DNA of 64,000 bases from the NCBI RefSeq assembly GCF_001971705.1, contig NZ_CP019327.1:2418001-2482000 (forward strand), in the 5' to 3' direction. This DNA is from Natronorubrum daqingense. GTDB taxonomy: Archaea; Halobacteriota; Halobacteria; Halobacteriales; Natrialbaceae. The translations under genes and the position numbers were made by a program. Of the stretch, positions 1,070 through 25,545 are shown piece after piece (positions within the stretch are counted from its first letter, which is position 1; every line of letters begins with the position of its first letter). The notes under the pieces were generated by a model, which saw nothing but the letters and a program-made list of their open reading frames with translations, ran no database searches and was not told the DNA's origin.

Positions 1070-1951
1070 TTATCGCTCACGCGGCCCTCGGGCGACGTTG
1101 CGACGTTTAGCGACCACGTACGCGACAGACGTTACCCAGAGCGCTCCGAAGTAGGCGTATATCCCCCAGCCAGCCGGGTAGCCGAACGACTGGATGGCCG
1201 TGATCGCGTACGCCAGGCCGTATACGGCGATCGGGACCCCGACGTACGTCCAGACGGCCGGCGTCCAGTCGGTGTCACCACCTCGAGGCGCGGTGACGTC
1301 GATAAACAACGCGACGAGCGTGAGGACGGACAGGGGGACGAAAAGGAACATCGCGACCCACGAGAGGACGAACGCAGCGCCGTGTTCGGATTGGACCACG
1401 AACCCGGAGCCCACGATCAGCGGTGCTGTGACGACGTAGAACGGGACGAGGTGCCACCAACGGAGGGTGCCGTCGGACGTGCCGTCAGTGGCCGACGCAT
1501 CCGTCGGGTGGTGTTCGCGCCAGACTCGAGTCGCGATCCACGCGCCGACGAGCGCACCGATCATCGCGGCCAGGACGGCGATTCCGACGCTGAGCGCGAC
1601 GACGAGCGGCAACGCGACGGCCGAAGCGACGACCATCCACTCGGGAGACCCGCCGATCGTCGTCGCCGTGTTGAGGAGGGTAACGAGAACCATGGCGAGC
1701 GAACCCGTCAGCCCGGTCCACAGGCCGGCGCGACGGGTCGGTGTCGTTCGGTTCCGATAGTAGACGCCGACGAGCAGGCTGGTCGCGAGCAGGGGTCCCG
1801 CCGAAACCGAGCCACCGACCGTGACGACCTCGGTCGGGACGGGACGCCAGGTGAGGGCGAACGTAACCGGAACCGACGCGAGTCCGGCGAGGATCGCCAC
1901 CCGCAGGGATTCCTCGGAGAGGTCTTCACGGAGGTCGCGACGGGAAACCAT
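1070..1951 (-). CDS. Multi-pass membrane protein (DUF5518-like)
   Basis: The product is 293 aa with about eight hydrophobic segments, roughly at residues 17-33, 47-62, 82-100, 108-140, 170-188, 196-220, 236-255 and 262-282. A short acidic Thr/Ser/Asp-rich loop near residues 148-162 separates two halves. The N-terminal half, with Gly/Ala/Val-rich helices, resembles haloarchaeal DUF5518 proteins. There are no catalytic motifs or cofactor sites to see. It is convergent with the epsilon-like gene. The function is unknown; a structural or transport role would be a guess. Confidence 0.6.
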   Translation of the reverse strand: MVSRRDLREDLSEESLRVAILAGLASVPVTFALTWRPVPTEVVTVGGSVSAGPLLATSLLVGVYYRNRTTPTRRAGLWTGLTGSLAMVLVTLLNTATTIGGSPEWMVVASAVALPLVVALSVGIAVLAAMIGALVGAWIATRVWREHHPTDASATDGTSDGTLRWWHLVPFYVVTAPLIVGSGFVVQSEHGAAFVLSWVAMFLFVPLSVLTLVALFIDVTAPRGGDTDWTPAVWTYVGVPIAVYGLAYAITAIQSFGYPAGWGIYAYFGALWVTSVAYVVAKRRNVARGPRER

Positions 1952-2037
1952 CGGTCGACCGAACCTAACGTGTCTGTTGTATTAACTGTATAGGTGATGA
2001 CGTGCGCACCGGGGCGAGGTTGCCTCGCTTCCCGTTC

Positions 2038-3102
2038 TCACTCGAGGGCTGCCTCGACGGCGTCCATCGCGCGATCGACCTTTTCTGTGTCGGCGTTGTA
2101 CCCCATGTGGCCGAGTCGAAGGATGTCGTCGGCCAACTCGCCCAGTCCCGTCGAGAGCACGATTCCGGCCTCGTCGGCGACGTGCTGTTGTACGCGCGTC
2201 GCCTCTCCGGGGAGGTGAAACGCCGTCACGGTGGGCGATGCGCGCTCGGGGTCGGGATACAACTCGAGGCCGAGTTCGTCGCCGCGCGCTCGACACCGGG
2301 CGGCGGCTTCCTCGTGGCGCTCGTAGACGGCCTCGAGTCCCTCCTCGAGGACCAGATCGAGGGCTGTATCGAGTGCGCTCACGTTCGCGGTGAGGTGCGT
2401 GTAGGGGAATCCGTCGGAGACGTCCCGCCAGAGCAAGAGGTTCGTGTAGCGCGAGGAGAGGTCGCGGGCTGCCATCTGCTCCCACGCCCGGTCGCTGACC
2501 GCTGCGGTCGTCAGCCCCGAGGGTGCGCTGAAACACTTCTGGGAGGCCCCGAGACAGACATCGATTCGATCGGTCGGCACCGGGGTTCCCCCGAGCGACG
2601 AGACGGCGTCGACGACGCTGAGCACGTCGTGTTCCTCGAGCAAATCCAGCACGGGGCTCATGTCGTTGAGCGTTCCCGTCGGCGTCTCGCAGTGAACCAT
2701 CGTCGCCACGGTGAACGGTTCCCCGGCAGCGTCGGCCTCCTCGAGCGTCGTTGCGATCGCCTCGAGGTCGTAGCCCTCGTCGTAGGGAGCAGAGACCAGT
2801 TCAGCCTGGCCATCGTAGGAGTCGACGAAGTCCGCGAAGCCGTCACCGTAGAGGCCGTTCGAAATGCACAACACTCGGTCGCCGGGTTCGATCAGCGAGG
2901 CGATTGCTGACTCGAGGCCGAGGATCCCCTCGCCGCCGGGAACGACCACGTCGTGAGAGGTGTCGTAGACGGTCTCGAGTTTCCGACAGACCGCGTCGTA
3001 TCGCTCGGCGAACGCGGGATCGACGTTCGGGTTCGGTTGTGGCTCGGCCATCGCCTCCCTGACCGCGGGCGGGATCGTCGTCGGCCCTGGCGTGAACTTC
3101 AT
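2038..3102 (-). CDS. Class V aminotransferase (alanine-glyoxylate / serine-pyruvate type)
   Basis: The 354 aa protein is a fold-type I PLP enzyme, of the length expected for serine-pyruvate/alanine-glyoxylate aminotransferases. The N terminus (FTPGPTTIPPAVREAM) is the family signature. The segment VVDAVSSLGG carries the Asp that holds the PLP ring nitrogen, and LGASQKCFSAPSG carries the Schiff-base Lys. It probably interconverts alanine or serine with glyoxylate or pyruvate in the cytoplasm. In archaea the exact donor is uncertain, and a phosphonate or aspartate substrate cannot be excluded. It is divergent from the DsbA-like gene, about 140 bp away. Confidence 0.85.
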   Translation of the reverse strand: MKFTPGPTTIPPAVREAMAEPQPNPNVDPAFAERYDAVCRKLETVYDTSHDVVVPGGEGILGLESAIASLIEPGDRVLCISNGLYGDGFADFVDSYDGQAELVSAPYDEGYDLEAIATTLEEADAAGEPFTVATMVHCETPTGTLNDMSPVLDLLEEHDVLSVVDAVSSLGGTPVPTDRIDVCLGASQKCFSAPSGLTTAAVSDRAWEQMAARDLSSRYTNLLLWRDVSDGFPYTHLTANVSALDTALDLVLEEGLEAVYERHEEAAARCRARGDELGLELYPDPERASPTVTAFHLPGEATRVQQHVADEAGIVLSTGLGELADDILRLGHMGYNADTEKVDRAMDAVEAALE

Positions 3103-3240
3103 GCATCGTCGTGGGACGCGGTGACATTAGCCCGTTGTGATTCGGACGCTGACGGCGTCGAATCGGGTTGGGGAACAGCCCGTAGCGAATCGCTCGCCGG
3201 TTGCCGTCGACTTTTCAGGCGCAGGTCCCTACGGTGTGGT

Positions 3241-3888
3241 ATGTCCGATTCAGCCGATCGGCTCGTCCTCTACGCCGATTACGTCTGCCCGTTCTGTTAT
3301 CTCGGTACGCGCTCGCTCGAGCGATACCGAGAGAGCCGCGAGAAGCCGCTGGAAGTCGACTGGCGGCCGTTCGACCTTCGCCGCGGGAAACGAACTCCCG
3401 ACGGGTCGATCGACCACGAAGTCGACGACGGCAAGGACGAGGAGTACTTCGAACAGGCGAAACAGAACGTGCGTCGCCTGCAGGAGGAGTACGGCGTCGA
3501 GATGGCTCAGGAACTCGCGATCGATGTCGATTCGCTGCCCGCCCAGCAGGCGTCGTGGTGCGTAAAACAAGAACACCGCGCGCAGTGGGCCGCCTTCGAC
3601 GAGGCCGTCTACGAGGCGCTCTGGCTCGAGGAACGCGACATCGGCGACCCGGACGTACTGATCGACATCGCCGAGGACGTCGACGTGTCGTCCGACGATA
3701 TTCGAGACGCGCTCGCAGACGACGAACGCCGAGCGGAACTCGAGGAGGAGTTCGACGCGTCGCGGCGGCGCGGAATCTCCGGCGTCCCGGCGTTCGTCGC
3801 CGACGGCCGACTCGCGCGCGGGGCGGTTCCGCCCGAACGCCTCGAGCAACTATTCGCTGGCGCGGGCGCGAGCAACGCGAGTCGGTGA
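3241..3888 (+). CDS. DsbA family / FrnE-like thioredoxin-fold oxidoreductase
   Basis: The product is 215 aa. Residues 16-19 are CPFC in the context LYADYVCPFCYLGTRSLER, the redox-active motif of DSBA-like proteins of the FrnE/2-hydroxychromene isomerase group. The helical insertion and the C-terminal segment GISGVPAFVADGR, with the cis-Pro loop (GVPAF), complete the fold. No signal peptide is seen, so it is cytoplasmic, as usual for FrnE. It likely handles disulfides or thiol-dependent isomerisation; the substrate is unknown. The start at 3241 gives the family N terminus; the reading frame stays open upstream to 2953, but that part is arginine-rich shadow of the aminotransferase. Confidence 0.8.
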   Translation: MSDSADRLVLYADYVCPFCYLGTRSLERYRESREKPLEVDWRPFDLRRGKRTPDGSIDHEVDDGKDEEYFEQAKQNVRRLQEEYGVEMAQELAIDVDSLPAQQASWCVKQEHRAQWAAFDEAVYEALWLEERDIGDPDVLIDIAEDVDVSSDDIRDALADDERRAELEEEFDASRRRGISGVPAFVADGRLARGAVPPERLEQLFAGAGASNASR

Positions 3889-3892
3889 GCGA

Positions 3893-4738
3893 TCACTCGA
3901 GTTTCTCGAGACCGTCGACGAACGATCCCTGCGGGCCGACGAGCGTGATCGGGTCGTTCGCGAGCGAGACGGTAACGGTCACCGGCGGCTCGAGTCGCTG
4001 ACGATTCCGTCCGTCGCTGATCACGTAGGCGGTTTCGGCCCCCGAAACGGTGACCTCGAGGGGCGTCTCGGGATCGACGACCAGTGGCGGCATCGCGTCC
4101 GCCGCGGCCATCTGCGTGACGACGAGCGCGTCCGTCGACGGCTGGACGATGGGGCCGCCCTCGCTCAAATTGTACGCGGTCGAGCCCGTCGGCGTCGCTA
4201 CGAGCACGCCGTCGGCGTGGCTCTCGACGTAGCGACGACCGTCGACGCGAACGTCGATCGTCGCCCCGCCGCCGTGTCCCCGACGGGGGCCGTGGATGAC
4301 GATTTCGTTGAGCGCCGGCTCGAGTTCCCAGTCGCCGTCGGCCTCGGTTGCAGTGAGGCGAGACAGCGTCCGCCCCTCGAGTGAGTCGGCTTCTGTGGCC
4401 GCTGTCACGAGGTCGGTGACGGCGTCGACGGCGTCCGCCGGTGAGACGGCGTTGAGGAAGCCGACTTCGCCGAGGTTGACGCCCAGAATCGGTGTCGGTC
4501 CGACTTCGCGGGCGACGAACAACAGCGTGCCGTCGCCGCCGATACTGACGACGAAGTCTCGGTCGTGCATCCGGTCGACGGAGACGCCGGCGTCGTCGAT
4601 CGCCTCACCAGTGAGCTCGTCGACGACGATGTCGACGGACGCGGATTGGACCTCCTCGAGCGTCGTTTTGATCTCCCTCGCGAGGGCTTGTGCACGTTCG
4701 TTGTCGCGTTGAGCGACGAGACCGACGGCGACCTCCAT
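3893..4738 (-). CDS. ppnK: NAD kinase
   Basis: The 281 aa protein phosphorylates NAD to NADP. The GGDGT motif (SIGGDGTLLFVAREV, near residue 75) carries the catalytic Asp, and ALNEIVIHG carries the NE motif. The segment SHADGVLVATPTGSTAYNLSEGGPI is the second diagnostic block. The ATG at 4738 was chosen because it begins directly at the Rossmann-like first strand (MEVAVGLVAQRDN); 23 further codons upstream to 4807 look non-coding and lie in the promoter region of the divergent gene at 4860. The end overlaps nothing; the DsbA-like gene ends 4 bp away, convergently. Confidence 0.9.
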   Translation of the reverse strand: MEVAVGLVAQRDNERAQALAREIKTTLEEVQSASVDIVVDELTGEAIDDAGVSVDRMHDRDFVVSIGGDGTLLFVAREVGPTPILGVNLGEVGFLNAVSPADAVDAVTDLVTAATEADSLEGRTLSRLTATEADGDWELEPALNEIVIHGPRRGHGGGATIDVRVDGRRYVESHADGVLVATPTGSTAYNLSEGGPIVQPSTDALVVTQMAAADAMPPLVVDPETPLEVTVSGAETAYVISDGRNRQRLEPPVTVTVSLANDPITLVGPQGSFVDGLEKLE

Positions 4739-21616: not shown

Positions 21617-21689
21617 GTCCGGGTTGGGGTAGTGGTTATCCTTCAGCCTTGTGGAGGCTGAGACGCGGGTTCGATTCTCGCACCCGGAC
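21617..21689 (+). tRNA. tRNA-His (GTG)
   Basis: The anticodon loop TTGTGGA in the stem CAGCC/GGCTG gives GTG. The acceptor stem TCCGGGT (21618-21624) pairs with ACCCGGA (21682-21688). The extra G at 21617 faces C73 at 21689, the G-1:C73 pair that marks tRNA-His. A T-rich run follows. Two further copies of its T-arm plus acceptor end lie downstream. Confidence 0.95.
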
Positions 21690-21723
21690 TTTTTCGCGAC
21701 GAACGAAGTGAAGAGCGGAAAAG
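21689..21723 (+). other. Hairpin 1 of the His array, first unit (degenerate)
   Basis: CTTTTTCGC (21689-21697) pairs with GCGGAAAAG (21715-21723) with one G-U. The 17-nt loop contains GACGAACGAAGTGAA, a diverged form of the loop seen in the other hairpins. Confidence 0.5.
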
Positions 21724-21915
21724 CCGGACGGCGAGATCGAACCAGAGAGTAAAGCGAACGAAGTGAGCGGAACGACCGCGGTTCGATTCTCGCACCCGGA
21801 CTTTCTGCGGCGAACAAATACGTGAGCCACAGGAATCCGCAGAGAATCGAACGAGACGAGTCGTGCGCAGCGCCAGCGAGGACGTCTCGGCATTGTTCGA
21901 TTCTCGCACCCGGAC
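21690..21915 (+). repeat. tRNA-His tail repeat array (two extra 3'-end copies)
   Basis: The last 22 bp of tRNA-His (21668-21689) recur exactly at 21780-21801, and 21 bp of them at 21895-21915, giving units of 112 and 114 bp. Each unit holds a hairpin just after the tRNA end, then a segment complementary to the T-arm (ATCGAACC at 21736-21743; AGAATCGAAC at 21843-21852), then the new T-arm copy. AGAATCGAAC is a perfect inverse of GTTCGATTCT at 21895-21904. The second spacer also has the core GCGCAGCG (21865-21872) seen in the Val array. No complete second tRNA is present. Confidence 0.85.
21802..21835 (+). other. Hairpin 1 of the His array, second unit
   Basis: TTTCTGCGGC (21802-21811) pairs with GCCACAGGAA (21826-21835), allowing two non-Watson-Crick positions. 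The loop is GAACAAATACGTGA. A competing perfect pairing CTGCGG/CCGCAG (21805-21810 with 21837-21842) is also possible. Confidence 0.65.
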
Positions 21916-22021
21916 AGTAAGTGCGACATATACTCGAGTTAACGAACCGATCAGCGTCAGCGACCAACCCCACCCAGCCGAGACCGAGAAGCCAATATCA
22001 CTACCGTCGTCCGAGCGAGTA

Positions 22022-22189
22022 ATGACACAAACGGAGGGACCGTTCACCTGCGAGATGTGCGACGCGACGGTGACGATGCGGGACGCCCGTCGGAGCAAAC
22101 CGATGGGCGACCTCGATCCGATGGCGTGGCAGACGCTGTGTTGTCCTCACTGCGGCTCGAGGCTGCGAACGGTCTACGTCGGCGGGTAA
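22022..22189 (+). CDS. Small zinc-finger protein
   Basis: The 55 aa protein has two CxxC pairs: CEMC at residues 10-13 and CPHC near 42-45. These suggest one zinc ribbon. Small haloarchaeal zinc-finger proteins of this sort are common and several affect motility or biofilm, but nothing here assigns a role. The ATG at 22022 was chosen because upstream codons run into the His repeat array. It ends at the aldo/keto reductase stop, convergently. Confidence 0.7.
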   Translation: MTQTEGPFTCEMCDATVTMRDARRSKPMGDLDPMAWQTLCCPHCGSRLRTVYVGG

Positions 22190-23050
22190 TCACTCGCCGG
22201 CCTCGGTCAGTCGCTGTACGTCTTCGTCCGCGAGCGAGAGTTGTGAGGCTTCGACGTTCGACTCGAGGTGCTCCGGATCCGACGTTCCCGGAATCGGGAG
22301 GATAACGTCGGAGCGCTCGAGGAGCCACGCCAGTCCGATCTGGCGTCGGGTCGCGTCGTAGTCGTCGGCGATCTCGTCCACGAGGTCGCCGTGTTCGTCC
22401 AAATCCTCGGCGTCGATCGGTGCCCACGGAATGAACCCGATGTCGTTGTCTTCGCAGACCTCGAGTACGTCCGCGTTCGATCGGTCGTCCAGGTTGAACC
22501 GGTTCTGAACGGTGGCAACGTCGACGTGCTCGCGGGCCGTCTCGAGTTGGTCGACAGAGACGTTGCTGACGCCGACCTGATCGACGAGGCCCTCGTCCTG
22601 GAGTTCGGCGAACGTCTGGATCGAGTCCTCGAACGACGTGTCGGGGTCGGGTCGGTGGAACTGATAGAGATCGATGGTGTCCGTTCGGAGTCGATCGAGG
22701 GACGCGAGCACCTGATTACGAATGTAGTCTGGCTCGCCGTGGGGGATCCAGTCGCTCTCGCGATTTCGGAGGAGGCCGGCTTTCGTCGCCACCAGCACGT
22801 CGTCTGGATCACCGATCGTCTCCCCGATGAGGCGTTCGCTGACCCCCGGCCCGTAGGAATCTGCGGTGTCGATGAAGTCGATTCCGCACTCGAGTGCCCG
22901 CTCGAGGACCGTGCGAGCAGTGGCTTCGTCCTCGGGCGGGCCGATGATCTCTTCGCCACAGAGGCGCATCGCGCCGAATCCCAGTCGGTGGATCGTGGTG
23001 TCGCCGATGTCGAAGGTGTCGCTCTCGTTCGTAATCGACTCGCTACTCAT
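22190..23050 (-). CDS. Aldo/keto reductase
   Basis: The 286 aa protein is an NAD(P)H-dependent oxidoreductase with a TIM barrel. The catalytic tetrad is visible: Asp and Tyr in DTADSYGPG, Lys in VATKAGL, and His in DLYQFHRPDP. The C-terminal GTSDPEHLESNVEAS binds the cofactor. The substrate is unknown. The start at 23050 gives MSSESITNESDTFDIGDTTIHRLGFG, the family N terminus. Confidence 0.88.
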   Translation of the reverse strand: MSSESITNESDTFDIGDTTIHRLGFGAMRLCGEEIIGPPEDEATARTVLERALECGIDFIDTADSYGPGVSERLIGETIGDPDDVLVATKAGLLRNRESDWIPHGEPDYIRNQVLASLDRLRTDTIDLYQFHRPDPDTSFEDSIQTFAELQDEGLVDQVGVSNVSVDQLETAREHVDVATVQNRFNLDDRSNADVLEVCEDNDIGFIPWAPIDAEDLDEHGDLVDEIADDYDATRRQIGLAWLLERSDVILPIPGTSDPEHLESNVEASQLSLADEDVQRLTEAGE

Positions 23051-23190
23051 GGACGATACGACTGGGAGGGAACGCATAACCGTTGGGCGTTCAGCTGCAG
23101 CCACGGTCGTCACAGCGGGCTCTCGAGCAGAAACTTAGATGGATGTGAAGGCGAATTCACCGAAGTGAGAAACGGTCGATACGGACGGAA

Positions 23191-23502
23191 TCACGTGACG
23201 AAGGGGCTGGCTCGCTGCAATCCAGTCCAGATCACAGCCGTCAAACCACCCGTAATGAGGAGCGAGTATCCGGCGTAGAGCCCGAACAGACCGGTAATGG
23301 CACAGGTCGTACCTGTACACGTCCGGTCGAACGCAGGCCATATCCACCCGATGGGAGCGACGAATAACTCGAGTGACGAGAGCGGATACACCAGAAACGA
23401 GAGAATGGGGCCGAGGAACACCACACCGAAGATCGCCGCGAATAACACCGGCTTCCCGATCGATGGTGCTCCCTTCGATTCAGTCCCACCGAAATCGCTC
23501 AT
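23191..23502 (-). CDS. Small membrane protein of unknown function
   Basis: The 103 aa protein has three hydrophobic segments (about 18-40, 42-55 and 66-92). Two Cys residues lie in the loop between them (RTCTGTTCAITG). An N-terminal Ser/Gly-rich tail of about 15 residues is cytoplasmic or exposed. No family is recognised. Confidence 0.55.
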   Translation of the reverse strand: MSDFGGTESKGAPSIGKPVLFAAIFGVVFLGPILSFLVYPLSSLELFVAPIGWIWPAFDRTCTGTTCAITGLFGLYAGYSLLITGGLTAVIWTGLQRASPFVT

Positions 23503-23659
23503 AGACAGTTCTAGTTATTCTTCTCACAAGTGCTTTCTGTAATTGCCGACGTGTCTCAGTTCGAAGCCGTCGGTGGCTAGAGAACAGTACCGACGATAAT
23601 CGGGTGGGTCGTGTTTCGCTCGAGTGTTTTCGCCGGATGGAAGTCGCGTGAAAAAGCCA

Positions 23660-23784
23660 TACCGCCTCCCGGATTTGAACCGAAGGAAGACAGTCCTGCT
23701 CGCTTCGCTGTGCGGGCTGTGACTTCCAGGGTTCAAATCCGATCAGATGGATTTCTCTCGCTCACGGGTTGTTCGCGAGAGAAA
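23660..23784 (-). repeat. tRNA-Phe tail repeat unit
   Basis: On the minus strand the 22-bp T-arm plus acceptor end of tRNA-Phe (23785-23806) recurs at 23660-23681 with a single change, giving a unit of 125 bp. Between them lie a hairpin next to the tRNA end and a second, larger inverted repeat: GGTTCAAATCC at 23730-23740 against GGATTTGAACC at 23671-23681. The core CGCTGTGC (23706-23713, GCACAGCG on the sense strand) matches the cores of the His and Val units. The change converts C72 of the acceptor end to T. Confidence 0.85.
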
Positions 23785-23785
23785 T
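23751..23785 (-). other. Hairpin 1 of the Phe array
   Basis: An 11-bp perfect inverted repeat, ATTTCTCTCGC (23751-23761) and GCGAGAGAAAT (23775-23785), encloses 13 nt. On the tRNA-sense strand the loop is GAACAACCCGTGA. The hairpin begins at the discriminator base of tRNA-Phe. Confidence 0.8.
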
Positions 23786-23858
23786 GCCGCCTCCCGGATT
23801 TGAACCGGGGACAGCTCGATCTTCAGTCGAGTGCTCTCCCAGTCTGAGCTAAGGCGGC
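23785..23858 (-). tRNA. tRNA-Phe (GAA)
   Basis: On the minus strand the acceptor stem GCCGCCT (23852-23858) pairs with AGGCGGC (23786-23792), and the discriminator is A at 23785. The anticodon loop CTGAAGA in the stem CTCGA/TCGAG gives GAA. The T-arm is GGTTCAAATCC. No intron is present. An incomplete copy of its 3' end follows downstream. Confidence 0.95.
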
Positions 23859-24081
23859 TCACTCTCACATCCGTCGATCGTATAAAAAAGGATTTCGAAT
23901 CGGAGATCCAAATCGTGTGAGGAAGTACCATCCAAAAAGTGTGGAGGAACTTCGCGAGTAAGCGTTTGTATCGGACAGAAACGTAGACCATACTATCACA
24001 TTCATCAGCTATTCACCGTAGTCTGTTGGATTTCAGGATATTCAAGACACCCTTTTCAGGTCTGGTGGGTAATACTATGTT

Positions 24082-24528
24082 ATGGATGCACTTACCTCGA
24101 GTCAGGGGGAGCAAGAACTCTCTGCAGACACCATCCTCGAGTTGCTGGCTAACCGCCGGCGACGGTACCTCCTCTACGCGCTGCGGGGCCAGGAACATCC
24201 GATCGAGTTGTCGACGTTAGCCGAGCAGGTCGCTGGGTGGGAACACGACGTGCCGCCGGAGGAGGTCGCAAAAAACGAGTACAAGAGCGTCTACGTCTCG
24301 TCGGTACAGTGTCACGTCCCGAAACTGGCCGACGCAGGCGTCGTCGACCACGACGAAGAGAATCACACCGTGGTGCTCGCAAGCAATTTCACGCAACTCG
24401 AGCCCTACCTCCGCGTCGTCATCAAGGACGAACCAGAAAATTCGATGTTACACGCCGCACTCGAGCAAGAATCCGGTGAGGGCTTGCTGGGCCAGATTCG
24501 AGAGAACGTGGCTCGATTGAAGCATTAA
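24082..24528 (+). CDS. Winged-helix DUF7344 protein
   Basis: The 148 aa protein has a predicted winged helix. It includes SADTILELLANRRRRYLLYALRG (about 14-36), the recognition region LAEQVAGWE, a long insertion EVAKNEYKSVYVSSVQCHVPKLADAGVVDHD, and the wing (HTVVLASN). This is the DUF7344 pattern common in haloarchaeal regulators. It likely binds DNA as a dimer; the target is unknown. No partner gene is adjacent. Confidence 0.75.
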   Translation: MDALTSSQGEQELSADTILELLANRRRRYLLYALRGQEHPIELSTLAEQVAGWEHDVPPEEVAKNEYKSVYVSSVQCHVPKLADAGVVDHDEENHTVVLASNFTQLEPYLRVVIKDEPENSMLHAALEQESGEGLLGQIRENVARLKH

Positions 24529-24889
24529 CGACCGAATGAGCAGATCGGAGACGGAATCGACACCGGATGACTCGAGGGGTAGTGGGGGGCTGGTTTTCGG
24601 AAGCGTTCGCGGTTGAGTTCCTCACACATCGGATACGTATCGAACGCTAAAGGACGTGTCTGCGAGTCGAAGAACCGCCGTTCGTAGTCTCGAGTTACTT
24701 CGAGTGAATAGTATCACGACTGGACGAACTGATCTACACTGACGTGGACGTGATTGAACTCGTCGCTCAGCCATCAATACTCGGACTAGCCAGTTGCACT
24801 TTCGGACACTATCACTGGTTACCCCGGAGAGCGAATCGTTCGGGTGTGCGTAACTAACCACGCCCGCCATCACAGAATCGACGAGAACG
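24529..24889. other. Gene-free stretch of about 360 bp
   Basis: No convincing gene, hairpin or repeat was found here. Base composition is a little more AT-rich than in the coding neighbours. It lies between the DUF7344 gene and a decayed gene, within the accessory segment that holds the three tRNA arrays. Confidence 0.5.
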
Positions 24890-25251
24890 ATGCTGGAGTC
24901 TCGAGACGACGATCGGTTTCGTCCGACGCCCGTCCAGGAGGAGTGGAACCCACAGTCGATGGACGGAGTCGTCGGCGTGCGAATCGAGGCAGATCCGAAT
25001 GGCGAATCGTCGTCCACAGAGTGGCTCTGGTCTTCGCGGTGGCTCGACGCCGTCGCAAAACGATAGCGGACGTGGTCTACGTTGCGTGGACGGCGATTGT
25101 GATCCTCGAGTGACTATTCGCCGTGATCTTCGGTGTGCTTGTCTCACGGTACGGGCAGGTCGAACGGTTTCTGAAGCCTCTCGAGTTCGGTGCAGATTCT
25201 CGAGAATCGGTTCCTCAAGAGCGCGAGCGAGGTTGTTCGCCATCAAAATAG
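24890..25251 (+). pseudogene. Decayed small membrane-protein gene
   Basis: From ATG 24890 one frame reads 58 acidic, protein-like residues (MLESRDDDRFRPTPVQEEWN to WSSRWLDAVAKR) and stops at 25066. Shifting frame at the AAAA run near 25058 gives TIADVVYVAWTAIVILE, then a TGA at 25111, then LFAVIFGVLVSRYGQVERFL and onward to a TAG at 25251. The hydrophobic segments join well across both breaks. One frameshift plus one in-frame stop therefore explain the region as a broken gene of about 120 codons. Its end overlaps the last Val repeat copy. Family not recognised. Confidence 0.4.
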
Positions 25252-25471
25252 GCTCGGGCGGGTTCGCACCGAAATCAGACGTGCTCGCGACGCTGCGCGC
25301 GACTGATAGGGTTCGAACCGCCCTTACGACAGATTTCTGCCGCTCACGAATTGTTCGCGGCAGAAATATGGGCTCGGGCGGGTTCGAACCACGGTCGGAG
25401 CAAGCTCCTCCCTGATTTGAACCCGGCACTCGCATACATTTCTCTGGTTCACTGGTTGTTCGCCGGAGAAA
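25249..25471 (-). repeat. tRNA-Val tail repeat array (two extra 3'-end copies)
   Basis: The 24-bp 3' end of tRNA-Val (25472-25495) recurs exactly at 25369-25392. A 22-bp form with two changes lies at 25249-25270. The units are 103 and 120 bp. Each has the hairpin next to the preceding tRNA end and a T-arm-like inverse segment (GATTTGAACCCG at 25414-25425; GGGTTCGAACCG at 25309-25320). The second unit carries the shared core CGCTGCGC at 25291-25298. The terminal copy has the same C72-to-T change as the Phe copy. A further loop-like piece follows at about 25231-25240. Confidence 0.85.
25333..25367 (-). other. Hairpin 1 of the Val array, second unit
   Basis: A perfect 11-bp inverted repeat, ATTTCTGCCGC (25333-25343) and GCGGCAGAAAT (25357-25367), encloses 13 nt. 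On the tRNA-sense strand the loop is GAACAATTCGTGA. Confidence 0.8.
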
Positions 25472-25472
25472 T
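25438..25472 (-). other. Hairpin 1 of the Val array, first unit
   Basis: ATTTCTCTGG (25438-25447) and CCGGAGAAAT (25463-25472) pair with one mismatch or wobble. The sense-strand loop includes GAACAACCAGTGA. It starts at the discriminator base of tRNA-Val. Confidence 0.75.
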
Positions 25473-25545
25473 GGGCTCGGGCGGGTTCGAACCACCGACC
25501 TCGGCCTTGTAAAGGCCGCGTCATGACCAGCTAGACCACGAGCCC
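25472..25545 (-). tRNA. tRNA-Val (TAC)
   Basis: On the minus strand the acceptor stem GGGCTCG (25539-25545) pairs with CGAGCCC (25473-25479), and the discriminator is A at 25472. The anticodon loop TTTACAA in the stem GGCC/GGCC gives TAC. The T-arm is GGTTCGAACC. No intron is present. Two partial copies of the 3' end follow downstream. Confidence 0.95.

Follow-up and report, generated by a model that had tools for sequence, protein, structure and literature searches.

Short non-coding DNA units with a host-matched inverse arm behind tRNA genes of Halobacteria

Results

Within the window, i.e., the whole 64,000-nucleotide stretch of the Natronorubrum daqingense genome analysed here, the genes for tRNA-His, tRNA-Phe and tRNA-Val are followed by short non-coding units of a common build. 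Directly after position 73 of the tRNA tail (positions 54-73) come a first hairpin (hairpin 1), an antitail, a hairpin core (core B) and a copy of about positions 53/54-73, which ends the unit; some 80-135 bp lie between the tails, and hairpin 1 and core B provide palindromes near both ends. The antitail is a reversed version of the tRNA tail, strongest over tRNA positions 54-63 and running imperfectly into the acceptor part.

The tRNA-His(GTG) gene (21617-21690, forward strand; ARAGORN, Rfam and repeats) hosts two tandem units on the same strand, and the repeated piece at this locus is its tail, at about 21668-21689. From sequence and fold, hairpin 1 of the first unit occupies 21690-21722; the following antitail (21723-21743; fold, repeats) is an imperfect, nearly full-length inverse of the tRNA tail, paired in the predicted fold; the inverse that the earlier note had called weaker has a core of 8 nt (21736-21743). 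Core B (21744-21779, from sequence) and a tail copy (21780-21801, direct repeat D1) complete the unit. In the second unit, hairpin 1 (21802-21836; sequence, fold) is followed by an antitail core at 21842-21852 that is the exact inverse of 21895-21905 (inverted repeat I3, 11 nt), so that the inverse pair claimed here is real; core B, with GCGCAGCG, lies at 21853-21893 (from sequence) and the tail copy at 21894-21915 (D1).

On the reverse strand, tRNA-Phe(GAA) (23785-23858, ARAGORN) hosts a single unit with hairpin 1 at 23751-23784 (sequence, fold), core B at 23682-23729 and a tail copy at 23660-23681 (D1). Its antitail core (23730-23741) is likewise an exact inverse, of 23670-23681 (inverted repeat I2, 12 nt), bearing out the pair reported for this spacer. 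tRNA-Val(TAC) (25472-25545, reverse strand, ARAGORN) hosts two tandem units, also on the reverse strand. The first comprises hairpin 1 (25438-25471; direct repeat D4, fold), the antitail core CGGGTTCAAA (25416-25425), of which, in keeping with the weaker form described for it, 7 nt match the tRNA tail, a core B belonging to the TCAGGGAG...GACCGT family (25391-25415, by sequence comparison) and a tail copy (25369-25390, from repeats). The second has hairpin 1 at 25333-25368 (D4, fold), the antitail core GGTTCGAACC at 25310-25319 (from repeats), which is palindromic by itself as had been pointed out, core B with GCGCAGCG at 25271-25309 (from sequence) and a tail copy at 25249-25270 (D1). The motif GCGCAGCG or GCACAGCG indeed stands between the arms in three units (His 2, Phe and Val 2), and all five units, when folded, gave z-scores from -2.6 to -6.3.

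Such units are not peculiar to this window. They stand behind 27 of the 43 tRNA genes of the N. daqingense genome, 16 being without them, and the strict unit pattern is present in 272 of 292 Halobacteria genomes and in none of 241 genomes from elsewhere in the phylum. Excluded from the analysis were a false intron-bearing tRNA-Asp call (L016), spacers shorter than 35-50 nt or longer than 170-175 nt, spacers with N, and units lacking an antitail-like octamer. We read the units as one family of non-coding DNA cassettes that spans the class and sits behind its tRNA genes.

From viral contigs the motif is practically absent, the exact pattern occurring in just 7 of them across the full collection. 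No phage matched, and the two plasmid matches, both arthrobacter, lie where the query holds the tRNA end; we rejected viruses and plasmids as carriers. Among the genome contigs listed, seven matches lie outside halophiles; tRNAs are present in 4 of these 7, and the seven look like neighbouring tRNA genes or chance. Nor did any gene-bearing, unit-like insert turn up behind 322 parsed tRNA genes, many of these loci offering only 1-3 kb downstream, and within the same limits there was no example of units as the fused ends of larger elements.

In this family the antitail follows the host tRNA gene. Across the whole genome, 81% of 43 distinct units (a twice-counted Asp array and a spurious 26-nt Gly unit being left out) reach an inverse score of 8 or more when compared with the tail of their own tRNA, as against 3.4% of shuffled spacers. 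The inverses noted earlier thus stand above chance; the observation is not wrong but incomplete, the structure being found behind 27 genes and not behind His, Phe and Val alone. In 5000 within-genome permutations the observed antitail-host match was never attained, and the tracking exceeds what the T-loop consensus provides. Behind tRNAs with the T-loop TTCAACTC, the antitail GAGTTGAA was found in 9 of 136 genomes and the common GATTTGAA in 0 of 136. The inverse hence changes with the host tRNA within a genome, beyond the consensus and, for the variant T-loop, across genera, as the earlier note had proposed to look for.

It is the tRNA, and not the adjacent copy, that the antitail resembles. 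Of 45 cells in which tRNA and copy no longer agree, the antitail equals the tRNA in 41 and the copy in 2, which means that a hairpin with the copy is not maintained. Among 800 cells, omitting loci found via the exact pattern, mismatches are nearly additive (76 antitail/tRNA plus 45 copy/tRNA vs 115 antitail/copy), and no compensatory change between antitail and copy was seen in the drifted cells; at positions 52-53, agreement with the tRNA holds in only 33-38 of 80 units. The antitail matches the tRNA rather than the copies in second and later units too, as expected if the match were fixed at joining and decayed afterwards. One count seemed to favour a package of preceding tail plus antitail (30 vs 2 in second and later units). 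The idea was dropped on account of 9 cells in which the preceding copy differs from the tRNA: in 8 of them the antitail has the letter of the tRNA, and in 1 that of neither.

Unit stems contain 31 G.T and 36 A.C mismatches, whereas the tRNA stems of the same loci contain 94 and 1, so that selection for RNA pairing is not visible in the unit stems. Over the wider span of positions 52-64 G.T is commoner than A.C (74:46 when the antitail is compared with the copy, 71:31 when it is compared with the tRNA), the excess falling outside 54-63. Between sister species, the antitail changes by 5.7% and the remaining unit parts by 6-8.5%; no part of the unit thus stands out in its rate, which is roughly tenfold that of the tRNA. 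The drifted cells, the stems and this even divergence speak against the supposed second hairpin, which would have trapped the tail copy as RNA; the RNA-trap reading is not supported, and we gave it up as the leading idea.

The units are gained or lost exactly, duplicated in tandem and reordered. At Tyr, Lys(TTT) and Arg(TCG), units are exactly present or absent among three Natrialba species, the flanks being identical; in the sister-species comparison, Val(CAC) has an additional unit on the tRNA-proximal side and Val(TAC) a different unit order. In one genome (G534) the unit at Tyr was apparently gained, the direction being read by parsimony for Tyr only, since exact loss via recombination between tails would give the same empty sites. 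Core B, moreover, has been swapped between different tRNA genes while the antitail still fits the local gene: over the aligned stretch, the cores behind tRNA-Ile(GAT) and tRNA-Phe in the N. daqingense genome are alike at 49 of 50 nt, and yet hairpin 1 and the antitails differ. Core B keeps a single orientation; inversion was looked for and found in 0 of 235.

As for candidate enzymes, tyrosine recombinases are present in 16 of 16 genomes tested. In none of the 16 does an IntI-type integrase (TIGR02249) exceed the cut-off, and the weak matches below it are probably other tyrosine recombinases. A Y1 transposase (PF01797) was found in 32 of 40 genomes and is absent from the unit-bearing G033, G077, G285, G533 and G534; some of these are drafts that could hide one, while the unit-rich G033 is a single contig and 99% complete. 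G077 and G285 are unit-rich as well. No integrase gene lies next to the tail site, and the units are too short to hold one. Two larger elements, at Arg (L035, with a fragment) and at Phe (L254, with an ORF), both lack an antitail.

Discussion

Taken together, the comparisons describe a pattern of mobility, from which we infer a moving enzyme. Our preferred reading, to which we tentatively assign a probability of about 0.4, is that these are non-coding DNA cassettes moved by a putative recombinase, with the tRNA tail as recombination site. At the G53/T54 edge of the T-loop, a recombinase of the host or of a mobile element would recognise the cassette and join it; this would most likely be a tyrosine recombinase, because these favour tRNA 3' ends, as reviewed for archaeal ones (PMC8371274). 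Its substrate may be the folded single-stranded cassette, much like an integron attC site, in which the antitail arm would let the folded site offer the same double-stranded core as the target tail; an antitail that presents the target core would match the tRNA when joined and drift later. In favour of such cassettes speak the confinement to one class, host tracking, exact gain and loss, core B exchange, single orientation, DNA-level stems and even rates, together with the nearly additive mismatches, the agreement of the antitail with the tRNA also in later units and the tyrosine recombinases in all 16 genomes tested. Against them, simple attC-type exchange does not predict that core B travels apart from hairpin 1, the scheme offers no route to the antitail of a new tRNA, and there are the missing IntI match in 16 genomes, the missing gene-bearing insert and the rarity of the motif in viral contigs. 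More doubtful is the wider proposal of a class-wide system in which gene-less cassettes travel as folded single strands with a targeting arm complementary to the tail of the tRNA gene entered, nearly every tRNA gene being the first site of its own array and the arm being rewritten when a core changes tRNA.

Could the units have arisen by mutation, with no enzyme of their own? When tRNA tails are replicated or repaired, fold-back synthesis and template switching would make tail/antitail palindromes, short homologies (TTCRAATC) would let hairpin tips swap, and repeat-mediated deletion, known from Haloquadratum (PMC3119063), would remove units. The alternation of tail and antitail, the near-perfect stems without G.T preference, the imperfect extension of the antitail into the acceptor part and the T-loop sequence that bounds core B swaps all suit such an origin. 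We nevertheless consider it rather unlikely, as the same core B families are met in several genera, always in one orientation, both edges are exact (position 73 and 53/54) and look enzymatic, confinement to one class is unexpected for general replication errors, and quasi-palindrome correction should make the antitail agree with the copy next to it, which is not seen. An RNA function, with the unit inside the tRNA precursor and the antitail switching between tRNA tail and copy, would fit the strong predicted folds, the host tracking and the class-wide presence; we grant it only a slim chance, given that no unit stem shows the G.U preference of tRNA stems, that antitail and copy do not compensate for one another, that units come and go rapidly, and that 16 of 43 tRNA genes of the N. 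daqingense genome are without any.

Two further explanations invoke known mobile elements. Under single-strand transposition of the IS200/IS605 type, the units would be non-autonomous and PATE-like, with a hairpin at either end, and the antitail would guide them by pairing with the target tail. The lack of coding capacity, the hairpins close to both ends and the guide-like complement to the target agree with this, and PATEs and IS605-type elements are plentiful in haloarchaea (PMC3119063). It is quite improbable all the same, for PF01797 was not found in the unit-rich G033, G077 and G285, nor in G534 (drafts could hide one), and the target reported for PATEs is 4-5 bp, not a 20-nt tail copy. 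Nor do we see much likelihood that the units are remnants of ordinary tRNA-targeting integrative elements, shrunk to fused end arms. Tail copies are what such elements leave, and the two conventional elements that we met (L035, L254) include one, L254, in which a partial tRNA has B-like hairpins at its 53/54 point; yet none of the 322 parsed tRNA genes is followed by a full-length element ending in antitail and core B, and a fixed anatomy of 80-135 bp at most tRNAs is unlike random decay.

If the mobile reading is true, the units are a non-coding element whose recognition sequence is fitted to the target; they would account for the quick variation of DNA behind tRNA genes and would offer, in Haloferax and Natrialba, an easily cultured model for archaeal folded-strand recombination. 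For annotators there is also a warning, namely that partial tRNA copies in haloarchaeal genomes are not all integration scars. In the open-access literature searched we found no repeat family behind most tRNA genes of an archaeal class with a target-following arm.

Several known systems share single traits with the units. Integrons build cassette arrays with folded attC sites, their cassettes carrying genes. The units resemble these arrays in being tandem and parted by copies of one site, in sites that can form hairpins, their inverted arms flanking a variable centre (the fold is seen here, and the role as recombination site is putative), and in changes of unit order with an extra unit at the gene-proximal end. 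Unlike integron cassettes, they are gene-less and 80-135 bp long, have no IntI above the cut-off in 16 genomes, use the tRNA tail itself as a site that differs for each tRNA, and let core B move alone. In Escherichia coli, the tail repeats of tyrT (rtT) likewise follow a tRNA gene in tandem and each include its 3' end; rtT, however, is a single bacterial locus, whereas the units are class-wide in Halobacteria. To our knowledge neither class-wide spread nor a host-matched antitail is known for rtT, and rtT or tyrT repeats gave no match in the literature searched. REP/BIME sequences, again small palindromic DNA repeats downstream of genes and moved in trans, are neither tRNA-bound nor provided with a target copy; the units are both. 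The members of a MITE family share terminal inverted repeats; in the units, hairpin 1 and core B make up the ends, core B in a single orientation. Casposons are marked by a Cas1-type integrase and terminal inverted repeats. The target duplication reported for them is 14 nt long (PMC10359463). With the PATEs and IS605-type elements of Haloquadratum (PMC3119063), the units have in common that they are short, non-coding, mobile haloarchaeal repeats with hairpins near both ends; they differ from PATEs in the 20-nt tail copy (about 53/54-73), the strict tRNA location and the host-matched antitail, and from both in that no Y1 transposase was found in some unit-rich genomes, drafts among them. Attachment sites of tyrosine integrases, finally (PMC8371274), run from the T-loop to the 3' end, with the tail duplicated and the tRNA left intact, and in this the units are alike; unlike such sites, they are gene-less stretches of about 100 bp at most tRNAs at once, with an antitail and with hairpin families common to several tRNAs. 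The units have the look of a very small mobile DNA of a kind not described before, one that would find its target by sequence match.

Organization of the units

Each unit follows tRNA position 73 in the order hairpin 1, antitail (a reversed copy of the tRNA tail, positions 54-73), core B and a tRNA copy (about 53/54 to 73), after which the next unit may begin. The inverse pairs that the earlier note had read in the spacers were borne out: they are exact over 11 nt in His unit 2 and over 12 nt in Phe, with weaker forms in His unit 1 and Val. Upon folding, all five units of the window beat shuffled sequences. When the DNA around tRNA genes beyond the window was also taken in, 27 of the 43 tRNA genes of this 3.84-Mb haloarchaeal genome were found with tail copies downstream, at a spacing of about 80-210 nt. 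The tRNA-Asp pair (L014) comprises two genes and six unit positions, with one array between and behind the genes and one unit nearly identical in both tRNA-Asp arrays; tRNA-Asn(GTT) (L006) is followed by two tandem units of ~190 nt, far longer than the others and of another internal layout.

In most units the antitail match spans positions 54-62 and ends sharply between 53 and 54, which is also the start point of the tail copy, while a weaker match extends into 62-65 and then the acceptor part. At 62-65 the antitail is specific to its own tRNA beyond the shared T-loop (0.81, 0.63, 0.48 and 0.44, versus 0.59, 0.38, 0.25 and 0.29 for other tRNAs with the same T-loop; 203 of 213 units, 0/1000 permutations as good). 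In the acceptor part the antitail likewise fits its own tail better (3.47 vs 3.09; 234 units, 0/1000 permutations; 4/1000 in 101 unselected units), and a control region within core B has no such excess (3.23 own vs 3.25). Core B falls into recurring families, e.g., TCAGGG...GACCGT and CCCTGG...CTTC, always in a single orientation (0/235 inverted). In most units, hairpin 1 and core B both contain a recurring motif, GCGAAC...GTGAGC (e.g., 21700-21711 and 21755-21766), a small stem in which G.A pairs stand in tandem. In one recurring subtype the copied T-loop is a base longer (GTTCAYAATC); it occurs at Arg, Lys, Phe and Thr genes (L001, L008, L010, L067, L075 and other loci), as if GTTCAY had been brought by the element and AATC onward supplied by the target.

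The antitail follows the host tRNA

The earlier note had proposed that the inverse traps the tail copy as an RNA hairpin, with tracking of the host tRNA as the check, and such tracking was indeed found. In this genome (43 units, 24 tails), the fit of the inverse to its own tail was 9.53 against 7.34 for permuted tails (standard deviation 0.30), a value reached in none of 5000 permutations. The own tail was the strict best fit in 16 of 43 units; in the remainder it tied with or fell below other tails, many of which have the T-loop consensus in common. In an independent test, variant tails TTCAACTC went with their own inverse GAGTTGAA in 10 units (9/136 genomes, 7 genera) and with the common inverse GATTTGAA in 0/136 genomes; core B beside the GAGTTGAA antitails starts like the usual families.

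Among 800 cells (positions 54-63 in 80 of 85 units picked without the pattern), mismatches numbered 76 for antitail against tRNA, 45 for copy against tRNA and 115 for antitail against copy, near-additive sums of the kind expected if both copies arose at one time and diverged afterwards. Where the copy had departed from the tRNA (45 cells, some stemming from the subtype with the extra base), the antitail equalled the tRNA in 41 and the copy in 2. Even in second and later units it sides with the tRNA, not with the drifted copies on either side.

The stems themselves are not RNA-like. With G.T and A.C mismatches weighted alike in stem scoring, we counted 31 G.T vs 36 A.C in hairpin 1 (a stem scored in 139/284 units), 34 vs 46 in core B outer stems (153/235 units), and, at 54-63, 27 vs 39 in antitail-copy and 27 vs 20 in antitail-tRNA pairing; over the wider range 52-64 G.T exceeded A.C in these two pairings (74:46 and 71:31), the surplus falling outside 54-63. 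At the same loci, stems from 184 distinct tRNAs gave 94 G.T vs 1 A.C.

Turnover and distribution

Of three sister Natrialba species, only N. taiwanensis has the Tyr unit; the Lys(TTT) unit is absent only from N. asiatica and the Arg(TCG) unit only from N. taiwanensis, and at these empty sites the sequence runs through with unchanged flanks. N. taiwanensis carries one further unit at Val(CAC), placed toward the tRNA. Unit order differs at Val(TAC), where one N. asiatica unit keeps hairpin 1 with a core B other than that of the N. aegyptia unit. In N. taiwanensis, and again in N. aegyptia, the units at Lys(TTT) and Lys(CTT), which have a tail in common, agree with each other at 92-93%, with differing downstream flanks. 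In the window genome, the Ile and Phe core B are identical at 49/50 nt, hairpin 1 and antitail being locus-specific. Homologous pairs (n=16) changed at similar rates in hairpin 1 (8.5%), antitail (5.7%), core B (6.1%) and copy (6.8%), so no part is specially protected; the tRNA genes changed by 0.55%.

An exact search pattern, two T-loops with an inverse T-loop between them, was present in 272/292 Halobacteria genomes (73/77 genera), the reversed control being absent among the matches listed. A draw from the phylum gave 51/53 Halobacteria genomes and 0/241 outside the class. Of the 80 loci among the matches listed from a named collection, 7 fell in scattered other genomes; the remaining 73 were haloarchaeal, except for three in euryarchaeal assemblies with no class given.

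Possible mechanism

The shortest account, to which we give a tentative probability of about 0.4, is that the units are non-coding cassettes using the tRNA tail as a recombination site. Precise edges, a single orientation, the way units are gained, lost and reordered, and the antitail's fit to its target at joining all suggest an enzyme. The DNA-level stems and the hairpin of antitail, core B and tail resemble folded attC sites. A candidate enzyme would join cassettes at the tail, handling them perhaps in single-stranded form, the antitail fitting the target at joining, and a new antitail would presumably arise for each new target. Our confidence is limited because three points are inferred: the enzyme, a single-stranded state of the cassettes, and how a new antitail comes about.

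Larger elements also occupy tRNA genes. An insert of 1.35 kb behind tRNA-Arg(GCG) (L035; G000:C1:3203500-3205700, 240-1620) closes with a perfect copy of the tail that includes part of the anticodon arm; it is a conventional integration scar without antitail, and a fragment of it reads like what we take to be a tyrosine integrase. At tRNA-Phe of Natrialba asiatica (L254), a 3.3 kb integrated element (1357-4650) has a presumably integrase-like ORF, and its right-hand partial tRNA copy is interrupted precisely at the G53/T54 edge by two hairpins, which come with neither an antitail nor a further tail; a similar hairpin insert lies in a partial tRNA-Phe of another genome (G165, L087).

Tyrosine recombinases were found in 16/16 genomes searched, IntI above the cut-off in 0/16, and no Y1 transposase in several unit-bearing genomes. 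Weak PF00589 (tyrosine-recombinase) matches lie within ~760-800-codon open frames of several genomes (G000:C1:723320-723802; similar places in G212, G077 and G533-G535), possibly a conserved candidate protein.

Units like these were not found described in the open-access papers searched. Published work reports, for Haloquadratum, repeat-mediated deletion, PATEs as small mobile repeats, and partial tRNA copies tied to prophages (PMC3119063); it also reports a preference of archaeal tyrosine recombinases for tRNA 3' ends (PMC8371274, a review) and a 14-nt casposon target duplication (PMC10359463).
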